This document shows, piece by piece, positions 54,886-60,446 of a DNA stretch of 64,000 nt. Source of the stretch: Bacillota bacterium (lineage in GTDB: Bacteria > Bacillota > Sulfobacillia > JABLXB01); contig JABLXB010000002.1 of NCBI GenBank assembly GCA_013178305.1, positions 62,001-126,000 on the forward strand, written 5' to 3'. A program made the translations under genes and the position numbers. The notes beneath the pieces were generated by a model. The model had not been told where the DNA came from. It ran no database searches and saw only the letters and a list, made by a program, of their open reading frames with translations. The number at the start of each line of letters is the position of its first letter. The first letter of the stretch is position 1.

Positions 54886-55089
54886 TTGCGAGGTACGGTA
54901 AAGTGGTTCAACGCTGAGAAGGGCTACGGATTCATCAGCAAGGAAGACGGCACCGGAGACGTTTTCGTCCATTACACCGCCATCCAGTCCGAGGGCTTCA
55001 GGAGCCTCAACGAGGGCGATGTCGTGGAGTTCGACGTCGAAGAGGGACGCAAAGGCCCGCAGGCCCAGAACGTGACGAAGGTTGTCTGA
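54886..55089 (+). CDS. cold-shock domain protein
   Basis: A 67-residue CspA-family protein with RNA-binding motifs RNP1-like KGYGFI and RNP2-like VFVHYTA. It binds single-stranded nucleic acids and melts RNA structure. The TTG start follows GGAGGTAAG. It lies 52 bases after addA and has its own strong terminator; a small GCGC-TTTTT-GCGC hairpin precedes it. Confidence 0.97.
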
Positions 55090-55190: not shown

Positions 55191-55439
55191 CTACTCCATC
55201 TTCTTGATCCCGTCAGCGCGGGCGTCGCCCTCCCGTGTTACGAAGGTCTTGCAGCAGGTATCCATGCAGCTTTTCACCGGTGTGTGCGGGAAATCGGCCG
55301 CCTGCAGGGCGTTGAAGGTGTGGGGCGTGGTATCCCCGGTCCTATCGGAACTCACCATTATCTGCTCCGCGTTGCAGTAGTTGTCCTTCGCCCAGTAGTG
55401 GCAGTTGTTCACGCTGCACCTGATGGCTTTGTTTGCCAC
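55191..55439 (-). CDS. DUF1540 cysteine-rich protein
   Basis: An 82-residue DUF1540 protein. The cysteine pattern CSVNNCHYW ... CNAEQI and CMDTCCKTF is diagnostic. The family is common in spore-forming Bacillota and probably binds a metal. AGGTGATACC precedes its start. Function unknown. Confidence 0.9.
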   Translation of the reverse strand: MANKAIRCSVNNCHYWAKDNYCNAEQIMVSSDRTGDTTPHTFNALQAADFPHTPVKSCMDTCCKTFVTREGDARADGIKKME

Positions 55440-55577
55440 GGTATCACCTCCGGTTCTGTTTTTCCCGAACGTTACGTCAAGTATACTGTGCTTTACTTAC
55501 GTGCGGCTGTCCGCTAGGATGTGGACAAAGGTTGCCAAAAATCGAGGCAAGGAACACAGACACGGGAGGGTCACATC

Positions 55578-56561
55578 ATGTCACAGTTCAAGGTGTTCGT
55601 CACGCGAGAGATACCGCGGGCAGGTCTTGACCTGCTGGGAACGAGGTGCGAGTTCACGGTAGGGTCGTATGAGGAAAAGCCGCTCGCGGAGGCCGAGATA
55701 AGGAATGGACTGAAGGGGGCAGACGCGCTCCTTTGCCTCCTGACCGAACGAATCACGAGGGAGATCCTCTCCGACTGCCACGTCAAGATCGTCGCCAACG
55801 CTGCGGTTGGATACGATAACATCGATGTCAAGGCCGCGACCGAACTCGGTATCCCCGTCACGAACACGCCGGGAGTTCTCACGGAGACCACGGCGGACTT
55901 CGCGTTCTCCCTGCTCATGTCGTCGGCAAGGAGAATCGCGGAGGCGGACAGGTTCGTCAGGGCCGGGAAGTTCACCGGCTGGGGTATGATGATGCTCCTC
56001 GGCAACGACGTGTACGGCAAGACCCTGGGCATCGTGGGCATGGGCCGGATCGGGCGCGCGGTCGCGAAGCGCGGCAAGGGATTCGGGATGAAGATAGTCT
56101 ACACTGACCAGGCGCGGAATCCCGAGGCAGAGGCCGAACTCGGCGCGGAGTTCGTCTCGAAGGAGACGCTGTTCAGGTCGGCCGACTTCGTCTCCCTCCA
56201 CGTCCCGCTCACGCCCGAGACGCGCCACTTCGTGGGTGCCGCTGAGTTCGCACTGATGAAGCCCACCTCCCACCTGATCAATACTGCCAGAGGGCCGGTC
56301 GTCGACGAGCAGGCCCTGCTTCAGGCGCTCAAGGACAGGAAGATCGCCGGCGCCGGCCTTGACGTGTACGAGCGCGAACCTCAGGTGACAGCCGGCTTGA
56401 TGGAACTGGACAACGTCACCCTCGCCCCGCACCTCGCGAGCGCGAGCGTGGAAACGCGGTCGCGAATGGCCACCATGGCCGTGGAGAACATCTTCGCGGT
56501 TATGGACGGCCGGCGTCCTCCGAATCTGGTAAACCCCGACGTCTACGCAGCGCGAGGCTGA
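55578..56561 (+). CDS. D-2-hydroxyacid dehydrogenase (glyoxylate reductase-like)
   Basis: A roughly 327-residue NAD(P)-dependent dehydrogenase. The nucleotide-binding loop is LGIVGMGRIGRAVAKR, the active site includes NTARGPVVDE, and the catalytic histidine is in LAPHLASAS. It probably reduces glyoxylate or a related keto acid. The ATG at 55578 follows GGGAGGG and is preferred over the upstream start. It ends before the hairpin shared with the agr-like operon. Confidence 0.93.
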   Translation: MSQFKVFVTREIPRAGLDLLGTRCEFTVGSYEEKPLAEAEIRNGLKGADALLCLLTERITREILSDCHVKIVANAAVGYDNIDVKAATELGIPVTNTPGVLTETTADFAFSLLMSSARRIAEADRFVRAGKFTGWGMMMLLGNDVYGKTLGIVGMGRIGRAVAKRGKGFGMKIVYTDQARNPEAEAELGAEFVSKETLFRSADFVSLHVPLTPETRHFVGAAEFALMKPTSHLINTARGPVVDEQALLQALKDRKIAGAGLDVYEREPQVTAGLMELDNVTLAPHLASASVETRSRMATMAVENIFAVMDGRRPPNLVNPDVYAARG

Positions 56562-56584
56562 GCTCGCTCTCCCGCCGCGAAAGA

Positions 56585-56615
56585 GAGAATAGGGGCAAGA
56601 AACGCCCCTATTCTC
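56585..56615. terminator. bidirectional terminator between dehydrogenase and agr-like operon
   Basis: GAGAATAGGGGC pairs perfectly with GCCCCTATTCTC around AAGAAAC. It lies between converging genes and could end both transcripts. Confidence 0.75.
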
Positions 56616-56643
56616 CCCCAACCAGATGAGCAAAAATCGGTGG

Positions 56644-56748
56644 CTACTCGACCTCCGGCTGGTAGAACACGCAGACGCATGCTCCAGCTACGTTGGCTGC
56701 TGCGACAATGCTGATAAGGGTTGCAAGGATGGTAAGTACCTTCTTCAT
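56644..56748 (-). CDS. agrD: AgrD-like cyclic autoinducer propeptide
   Basis: A 34-residue peptide starting at ATG 56748 behind a strong GGAGGTGA. It has a basic N-terminus (MKK), a hydrophobic helix that should attach to the membrane, then ACVCVFYQPEVE. The C-terminal PEVE resembles the conserved PEVP motif of AgrD propeptides. By alignment with clostridial AgrD (for example the CLWFT pentapeptide), the mature signal should be a thiolactone formed by Cys24 and Phe28, CVCVF. AgrB lies 59 bases upstream in the transcription direction, as expected. It is the last gene of its operon. Confidence 0.88.
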   Translation of the reverse strand: MKKVLTILATLISIVAAANVAGACVCVFYQPEVE

Positions 56749-56807
56749 GGTGTCACCTCCCCGCGAGTTGTGCGGTGGTTAGCCGCCGGTTTCCGCTCAA
56801 GGCCTCT

Positions 56808-57440
56808 CTAGTCGACGCCAACGGCATCAAGTAAACTGTCAACTCCCATTATCAGGCGGGCGCCGGGTTCCGTCACACTGCACGACTGCCAAAGGCAACC
56901 GGCGGCAACAGCACCTGCGATGGAAGACGCAAACGAGGAATGCCCTAAGTATTGGAGTGATAACAACAAGTAAGTCAGCAGAACGAAGACTGCTACCGGA
57001 CGGAATCTCAGGTTTCTCAAGTCCCTCGAGTCTCGTGGGGCGGTCCGGGCAAACAGACACGCCGCCGACACAGTATAGGTTGCCGCGACAAAGATAGGAC
57101 TCGTGGCCAAACCGTGGACAGCGGCGGCTTTCCCGATTGTACTGTAGACGACAACAGTCACCAGCGCGCACCTGCCGGAGGTGCTGCAGTGGGCCCCGGC
57201 CGAGAACACGCGCAGAATGAACGCGGCCGCAGCTGCGGTAAGGCCCTGGGCAAACGAGCCCAGAAGAAAAGACACCGCGGCTACCAGCCCCATCCCTGTA
57301 AGCCACGAGAACACGATGTCGAATCCAAACCGCAGGGTCTTTTCATGGGCGGCCCCCAGATCGAGTTGCCCAGCAAGCCACCGTCCTGCAGCCGCAGCAG
57401 CCGGAGTCGTGTTAAGCAGCCGGATGCGTCTTGCTTGCAT
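56808..57440 (-). CDS. agrB: AgrB-like propeptide-processing protease
   Basis: A 210-residue membrane protease of the AgrB family. The catalytic His and Cys lie seven residues apart in GAHCSTSGRC, as in Staphylococcus AgrB, preceded by the family-typical LRVFSAG. About five membrane segments follow. It cleaves the C-terminal part of AgrD and forms the thiolactone. Its start overlaps the end of the upstream membrane protein gene by 29 bases, so the operon order is membrane protein, AgrB, AgrD. Confidence 0.88.
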   Translation of the reverse strand: MQARRIRLLNTTPAAAAAGRWLAGQLDLGAAHEKTLRFGFDIVFSWLTGMGLVAAVSFLLGSFAQGLTAAAAAFILRVFSAGAHCSTSGRCALVTVVVYSTIGKAAAVHGLATSPIFVAATYTVSAACLFARTAPRDSRDLRNLRFRPVAVFVLLTYLLLSLQYLGHSSFASSIAGAVAAGCLWQSCSVTEPGARLIMGVDSLLDAVGVD

Positions 57441-57897
57441 GCCTACGAGTCCTCACTCCTCGAATCCAAAGCACGAGCATAACGTAGAGGGCCAGGACTG
57501 TCGGCGTCACAAGGCCGAAGACCGACCTCATAGCTATGTTAGCCAGCATGTCCTCGATGTGAATCCCAAGCACTCTGAGTACATAGAAGCATACGACTTC
57601 CTCTACAAATAGGAACAGCGTGAATCCGCCGAACGTGGCGCACGAGGCTGTCAAGAACGGTGGTCTGAACATGTAATAGATCAACGGAAGCAACACAAAC
57701 ATCATGAGAATAGTGTGAATTCCAAACCGTAGCGGCATGATCCGGATGACTTGAGCCGCAGTCGTGCCGATTACTCCAACGATCATGAGCCTCCTAAGAT
57801 CGAATCTGATCCCCCAAGTTGCCATGCCGGCTGCGGATATTGTCATAAACTCGAGCCAGCCATGAATGATGGTTACTGCCAATGATGCTGCGTCCAT
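57412..57897 (-). CDS. membrane protein resembling an AgrC sensor domain
   Basis: A 161-residue protein of about five membrane helices with a short basic C-terminal tail. It lacks any kinase domain. Its length and helix layout resemble the sensory part of AgrC-like histidine kinases that detect the peptide, and its place at the head of the agr-like operon supports a role in sensing, immunity or export (inference). GAGGAGG lies six bases before the ATG at 57897. No cognate kinase or response regulator is adjacent. Confidence 0.65.
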   Translation of the reverse strand: MDAASLAVTIIHGWLEFMTISAAGMATWGIRFDLRRLMIVGVIGTTAAQVIRIMPLRFGIHTILMMFVLLPLIYYMFRPPFLTASCATFGGFTLFLFVEEVVCFYVLRVLGIHIEDMLANIAMRSVFGLVTPTVLALYVMLVLWIRGVRTRRHASKTHPAA

Positions 57898-60353: not shown

Positions 60354-60446
60354 TCAGAAGTCGCCGAAGATGAGAAGGATCAGGATCAGGAAGATGATGA
60401 ACGCGAAGTTCCCTCCGAAGAAACTGCCGCCTTTACCCTCTACCAC
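60354..60446 (-). CDS. small hydrophobic protein, YjcZ-like
   Basis: A 30-residue peptide starting at GTG 60446 behind a GGGGGG, with a glycine-rich start (GKGGSFFGG) and one membrane helix (AFIIFLILILLIFG). It resembles the tiny YjcZ-type sporulation proteins of Bacillota. The gene ends just before the terminator above, which supports it. Function unknown. Confidence 0.58.
   Translation of the reverse strand: MVEGKGGSFFGGNFAFIIFLILILLIFGDF

Follow-up and report, generated by a model that had tools for sequence, protein, structure and literature searches.

We identified a three-gene operon in a 64,000-nucleotide stretch of a Bacillota genome (hereafter, the window) that probably encodes an agr-type peptide signalling system with a split receptor. 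The genes lie on the minus strand between 57897 and 56644, in the order receptor-domain gene (57897-57412), agrB (57440-56808) and agrD (56748-56644), with an overlap of 29 nt between the first gene and agrB. We propose that the 161-aa protein from the same operon would sense the peptide in the membrane and then relay the signal to an output protein whose gene lies elsewhere in the genome. The family membership of AgrB and AgrD, the conservation of the three genes, the homology to AgrC receptors and the complementary split seen in relatives are all directly supported. The agr system itself is well known and the split-receptor operon is a variant of it, and the stand-alone receptor half with its likely partners is of more interest than the two-cysteine ring of the pheromone.

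The biosynthetic pair is recognized by curated family models. AgrB, a membrane cysteine endopeptidase of 210 aa, matches PF04647 with 68.9 bits (E 4.8e-19), above the gathering cut-off of 23, and its H84 and C91 are invariant across the aligned AgrBs (n=6), which bears out the original prediction of an AgrB with an H-x6-C pair (H84-x6-C91) preceding agrD. No other AgrB was found in the genome that holds the window. The signal-peptide precursor AgrD (34 aa, MKKVLTILATLISIVAAANVAGACVCVFYQPEVE) scores 36.3 bits against TIGR04223, for which the curated cut-off is 19, and its gene follows the Shine-Dalgarno sequence GGAGGTGA (56753-56760, minus strand). Both an AgrD-like 34-codon gene behind a strong ribosome-binding site and the reading of the locus as an agr-type peptide operon, as first proposed, were thus upheld, the latter by TIGR04223 and PF04647 together. 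AgrD had no match among phage records. We regard it as nearly certain that AgrB and AgrD make a peptide.

The sole close relative found is a Bacillota MAG from a sister genus (L007; G001, from the same family, is apparently this very contig), whose contig is only 3.7 kb long and which carries the same three genes. Protein identity between the two operons ranges from 55 to 65% (sensor ~60%, AgrB 55%, AgrD 22 of 34 residues), and dN (sensor 0.28, AgrB 0.44, AgrD 0.20) is far below dS (saturated for the sensor, 1.87 for AgrB and 1.15 for AgrD). The agrD start context, GGAGGTGACACC-ATG, is the same in the sister genus base for base, including the Shine-Dalgarno sequence (GGAGGTGACACCATG in L007). 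Because a sister genus retains the operon, its C-x-C motif and its short AgrD tail, at a dN far below dS, sequencing error and chance are excluded as its source on comparative sequence grounds.

The operon is flanked by a dehydrogenase gene and an amidohydrolase-like gene. Beyond the agr operon, L007 also keeps the dehydrogenase and DUF1540-like genes, and the order DUF1540-like protein, 2-hydroxyacid dehydrogenase and agr (window 55191-56561) is conserved there; just past the DUF1540-like gene lies a likely cold-shock gene (54886-55089). The space between agrD and the convergent dehydrogenase gene contains a 17-pair hairpin (56583-56619, minus strand), a probable terminator that lacks a long T run and was missed by a scan for T-run terminators; its 76-nt fold has a predicted energy of -34.8 kcal/mol (z -4.49), and none of 200 shuffles was equally stable. 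A search against Rfam gave no match. Elsewhere in the window, a 30-aa ORF at 60354-60446 (MVEGKGGSFFGGNFAFIIFLILILLIFGDF) resembles small YjcZ-type sporulation proteins.

Within the window AgrD, A-G-A precedes C24 and Y29-Q-P follows F28, in keeping with the family layout of a Cys or Ser five residues ahead of Tyr/His-[Gln/Glu]-Pro (C24...F28-Y29-Q-P). The ring is accordingly predicted at C24-V-C-V-F28 (codons at 56665-56679, minus strand), and the proposed ring CVCVF with its second cysteine is supported by the alignment of 129 AgrDs as well as by the boundaries of the Clostridium thermocellum autoinducing peptide (AIP). The sister AgrD ends in ACICIFYQPEID, with the ring CICIF and the tail QPEID in place of CVCVF and QPEVE. 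To place these features, we compiled 129 distinct AgrDs from class and phylum searches; as these are the best-scoring among the matches listed, the rates that follow are estimates. Of these, 92 close the ring with Cys and 34 with Ser, and the ring is followed by Tyr in 116 and by His in 13. Eight of the 92 that use Cys have another cysteine within the ring, always at ring position 3 or 4. Two-cysteine rings recur, since these are seven independent cases among the matches listed when the window and its sister are counted once: C-x-C is found in the window, the sister and L230 (CICLI), and C-x2-C in L148, L151, L184, L199 and L217. The C-x-C ring is therefore not unique to the window, and the description of the pheromone as an unusual two-cysteine peptide holds in the sense of uncommon and fails in the sense of exceptional.

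The tail of the peptide precursor proved to be as short as first noted, and alignment with other AgrD families placed both the tail and the ring. Counted from QP, it comprises five residues in the window (QPEVE) against a modal ten among the 129 AgrDs listed, and a five-residue tail occurs only in the window and its sister. It also lacks P-x-x-P, the reported AgrB binding site in the AgrD tail (PMC3901668), which is usual in AgrD and is no requirement of TIGR04223; four of the 129 lack it, including L199, which also has two ring cysteines. As judged from these sequences, the short tail without P-x-x-P is a rarer trait than the two-cysteine ring. An AgrD-like ORF at L089 (1-135), directly before a fused sensor kinase, has Thr (NTLWSAYEP) at the usual Cys/Ser position. 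A DNA pattern for C-x-C-x-x-Y-[QE]-P yielded mostly chance matches across 398 genomes, with frequent matches in the reversed control as well, and was left out of the counts.

The chemistry of the peptide may be predicted from characterized relatives. LC-MS/MS identified the C. thermocellum AIP as a lactone of five residues, Ser25 to Phe29, which begins after Ala24 and ends directly before Tyr30 (PMC5322536), a layout matched in the window by Ala23, Cys24-Phe28 and Tyr29. Pentameric thiolactones free of an exotail convert to head-to-tail cyclopeptides; the Listeria monocytogenes peptide does so at pH 7 with a half-life of 1.3 min (PMC11297923). By analogy, AgrB (H84/C91) would cut AgrD after Phe28, Cys24 would capture the acyl group to form the five-residue thiolactone CVCVF, and a second cut between Ala23 and Cys24 (AGA/C) would leave no exotail; the thiolactone could therefore rearrange by an S-to-N acyl shift into a head-to-tail cyclopentapeptide with two free thiols. 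We give slightly less than an even chance to cyclo(CVCVF) with a free dithiol as the product, which would be secreted. The computed m/z values are 552.23 for cyclic CVCVF, whether thiolactone or head-to-tail isomer, 550.22 for the disulphide-linked form and 623.27 with one exotail Ala. Of the possibilities first raised for the second cysteine, two equal thiolactone registers are unlikely because Cys26 would close a three-residue ring. The second cysteine could instead be functional in its own right, in which case the signal would be a disulphide-bridged peptide or a cyclic dithiol that responds to redox state or metals, rather than a plain thiolactone. The retention of C-x-C in the sister while neighbouring residues change from V to I is consistent with this, as is the confinement of second cysteines to ring positions 3 or 4 in the eight of 92 AgrDs; yet conservation across two genera is a small sample, and receptor fit could account for it. 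We consider such a role doubtful, though it concerns the peptide only and is compatible with a split receptor.

The interval 57897-57412, which the original prediction left uninterpreted, is the third conserved gene. Its 161-aa product matched no Pfam or NCBIfam model and was assigned by profile homology and structure prediction. In hhalign, a profile of 41 relatives aligns with fused AgrC-like kinases over their residues 19-177 (probability 99.8%, E 3.4e-30), and four of the five fused kinases compared carry SPOB_a and GHKL domains, like AgrC-type kinases. The window protein alone reaches 56.5 bits on the fused-kinase HMM (positions 11-152), against at most 6.5 bits for any of 500 shuffles, and three of the 41 relatives match the Staphylococcus AgrC model, with alignments shown at model positions 9-127 and 10-129. 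AlphaFold2 predicts, at a pLDDT of 94.4, main helices at 3-27, 34-53, 60-77, 81-110 and 121-157; five membrane helices are predicted, and the chain stops after its fifth long helix. All 41 relatives share R52 and H61, and E16 and G59 are nearly invariant. The protein thus has the membrane receptor domain of an AgrC, and its chain carries no kinase domain (DHp and ATPase). As judged by this homology, the third gene likely encodes an AIP receptor half, that is, an AgrC without its kinase half. A PDB fold search with the model returned nothing significant, so it is from homology that we infer peptide binding. A search of BFVD returned one phage protein (A0A8S5PKY4, TM 0.70, E 0.015), which is suggestive only, and one receptor relative searched against phage records had no match. 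The receptor alignment contained no segment of sufficient conservation for a scan of viral sequences.

Stand-alone receptors of this kind are widespread. A profile built from five class-level relatives matched 7 of 154 genomes of the class, including 5 of the 6 that bear agr, and a phylum search found the receptor domain in 138 of 398 Bacillota genomes. Among 148 receptor matches listed, 133 are in ORFs that do not exceed 290 aa, most of them 150-200 aa long, and the other 15 are as long as kinases; the stand-alone form is usually the form that the AgrC receptor half takes across Bacillota. At least 73 of these 133 have a listed AgrD no more than 5 kb away, and at least 67 of the 151 listed AgrDs have a stand-alone receptor at such a distance, both being lower bounds among the matches listed; for 10 kb taken at random from a genome of 3 Mb, well under 1% would be expected. 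We also read 20 neighbourhoods, a non-random sample picked for a sensor or agr match, and in all 17 loci read with a stand-alone sensor the sensor-agrBD cluster has an output gene next to it, coding for a histidine kinase or a GGDEF/HD-GYP protein. Five of these loci (L090, L093, L095, L096 and L098) have a sensor that covers positions within 11-162 of the fused-AgrC model and a separate kinase that starts at 175-197 and runs to 446-457; by sequence alignment, this is AgrC split in two at one place. Other outputs beside stand-alone sensors are HisKA kinases (L085, L086) and GGDEF/HD-GYP proteins (L084, L087, L097, L100, L102).

Several further arrangements were observed in these neighbourhoods. 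Two or three receptor genes stand in tandem beside one agrBD in L090, L092, L095, L100, L101 and L102, comparable to gp44/gp45 of phage Davies, and the copies possibly serve different peptides. At L087 (5887-7748), a stand-alone receptor domain without agrBD lies ahead of an HD-GYP/GGDEF protein and is a possible eavesdropper. A second five-helix input domain forms the N-terminus of GGDEF/HD-GYP proteins and kinases beside agrBD and stand-alone sensors (L084 6850-7419, L097 3077-3646, L102 4842-5411, L100 431-1000, L099 4402-4971 and L101 7209-7778); the window genome lacks this partner domain.

The operon has no adjoining output gene in the window or in the sister, whose contig is short. Searches of the window genome with GHKL, LytTR, SPOB_a, HisKA and the five-helix partner domain revealed no convincing AgrC-type kinase. 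The GHKL matches were rejected as ordinary HisKA kinases, and the SPOB_a match as a Spo0B-like protein beside apparent ribosomal protein genes; the two-helix AgrC layout is absent from the readable HisKA matches. The single LytTR gene found has a LytS-like kinase as neighbour and belongs to a different contig; the locus is thus not a complete agrBDCA system with an AgrC kinase and the LytTR regulator AgrA. Because the genome is 97.7% complete in 22 contigs, a gene missing from it is possible and not likely. We lean towards an output in trans, and infer the identity of the partner from the relatives, in which the receptor appears to signal to the kinase or GGDEF/HD-GYP protein next door. At L234 (1198-2031), a Spo0B-like protein is encoded in an apparent ribosomal protein (rplU/rpmA) neighbourhood, and the organism probably has a sporulation phosphorelay.

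Against a split receptor stand the missing adjacent output gene, the failure to find an AgrC-type kinase in the genome, the PDB fold search with no significant match and an AgrD without P-x-x-P, and other explanations have to be weighed. The 161-aa protein might be an AgrB accessory that aids peptide maturation through substrate handling, export or immunity, as its overlap with agrB, its co-orientation with agrBD and a locus devoid of a kinase would allow. Position alone is indecisive here because AgrC is also adjacent in S. aureus-type systems, whereas the homology points to the receptor region of kinases, the neighbouring kinase in five relatives lacks exactly that region, and the L087 copy occurs without agrBD ahead of an HD-GYP/GGDEF protein; we judge an accessory role unlikely. 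Slightly less probable still is a decaying agr locus that has lost the kinase half and AgrA, leaving a receptor half and agrBD as remnants or as a means only to eavesdrop or jam. Such decay would explain why the AgrC kinase half was not found and why the AgrD tail is short and lacks P-x-x-P, but it is difficult to reconcile with purifying selection on all three genes across the two genera (dN of 0.20-0.44, dS of 1.15 or more) or with a ribosome-binding site conserved to the base. Moreover, the window receptor need not be a truncation, because the stand-alone form is common in the phylum.

That the 34-codon ORF is a short lipoprotein gene or a chance ORF beside a membrane gene is highly improbable. 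Its product does have a hydrophobic, signal-like leader followed by Cys, but AGAC is a poor lipobox, the YQP motif is present, and the ORF is conserved together with AgrB in the sister genus; the lipoprotein reading was rejected on the family match, which scores above the curated TIGR04223 cut-off. A split receptor remains our preferred reading of the operon.

The window operon has much in common with known agr systems. With the C. thermocellum AIP (PMC5322536), C. difficile agr1 (PMC8534292) and others of the TIGR04223 kind it shares a short leader and a five-residue ring before Tyr-Gln-Pro, and as in C. difficile agr1, AgrB lies beside AgrD and an adjacent AgrC kinase and AgrA are absent (PMC8534292). 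It differs from these clostridial pairs in its second ring cysteine, its five-residue tail without P-x-x-P and its stand-alone receptor gene. The logic of AgrB and AgrD is that of S. aureus agrBDCA, and the third protein matches the AgrC membrane region through the profile of its relatives, whereas the window has no kinase domain and no adjacent AgrA. A precedent comes from phages Davies, Emery and Abouo, for which AgrC-like proteins lacking the kinase were described in 2014: one or two small membrane proteins, by agrB and agrD, without a HATPase domain (PMC3901668). The window receptor is likewise kinase-less; it is chromosomal and has 161 aa, while the phage proteins are longer (219-222 aa) and were mentioned in passing, with no family defined (PMC3901668). 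Davies gp44 and gp45, encoded side by side, score 23.5 and 20.3 bits with the receptor profile, which is weak but above AgrB controls. We found no description of the stand-alone receptor as a family in the open-access literature, to which our search was confined, subscription papers lying outside it.

In several clostridial agr loci, including C. difficile agr1, agrB and agrD occur without a recognized receptor and the signalling route is an open question (PMC8534292). The stand-alone receptor may explain how agr operons with no recognizable receptor signal; being a small membrane protein that no Pfam or NCBIfam model covers, it is readily labelled hypothetical, and the 41-sequence profile offers a direct means of searching for it. 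The two-cysteine ring matters less, though it offers an exact mass prediction and a possible redox-sensitive signal. Co-location with GGDEF/HD-GYP genes suggests links from agr peptides to c-di-GMP. We give an even chance to the broader proposition that split receptors are modular on a large scale in Bacillota, with interchangeable outputs, and that the window is an instance with an output in trans and a dithiol pheromone. If so, the five-helix receptor domain would work with AgrC kinase halves, other histidine kinases and GGDEF/HD-GYP enzymes, agr peptides could act directly on c-di-GMP and on other outputs, and one output could be shared by several operons.
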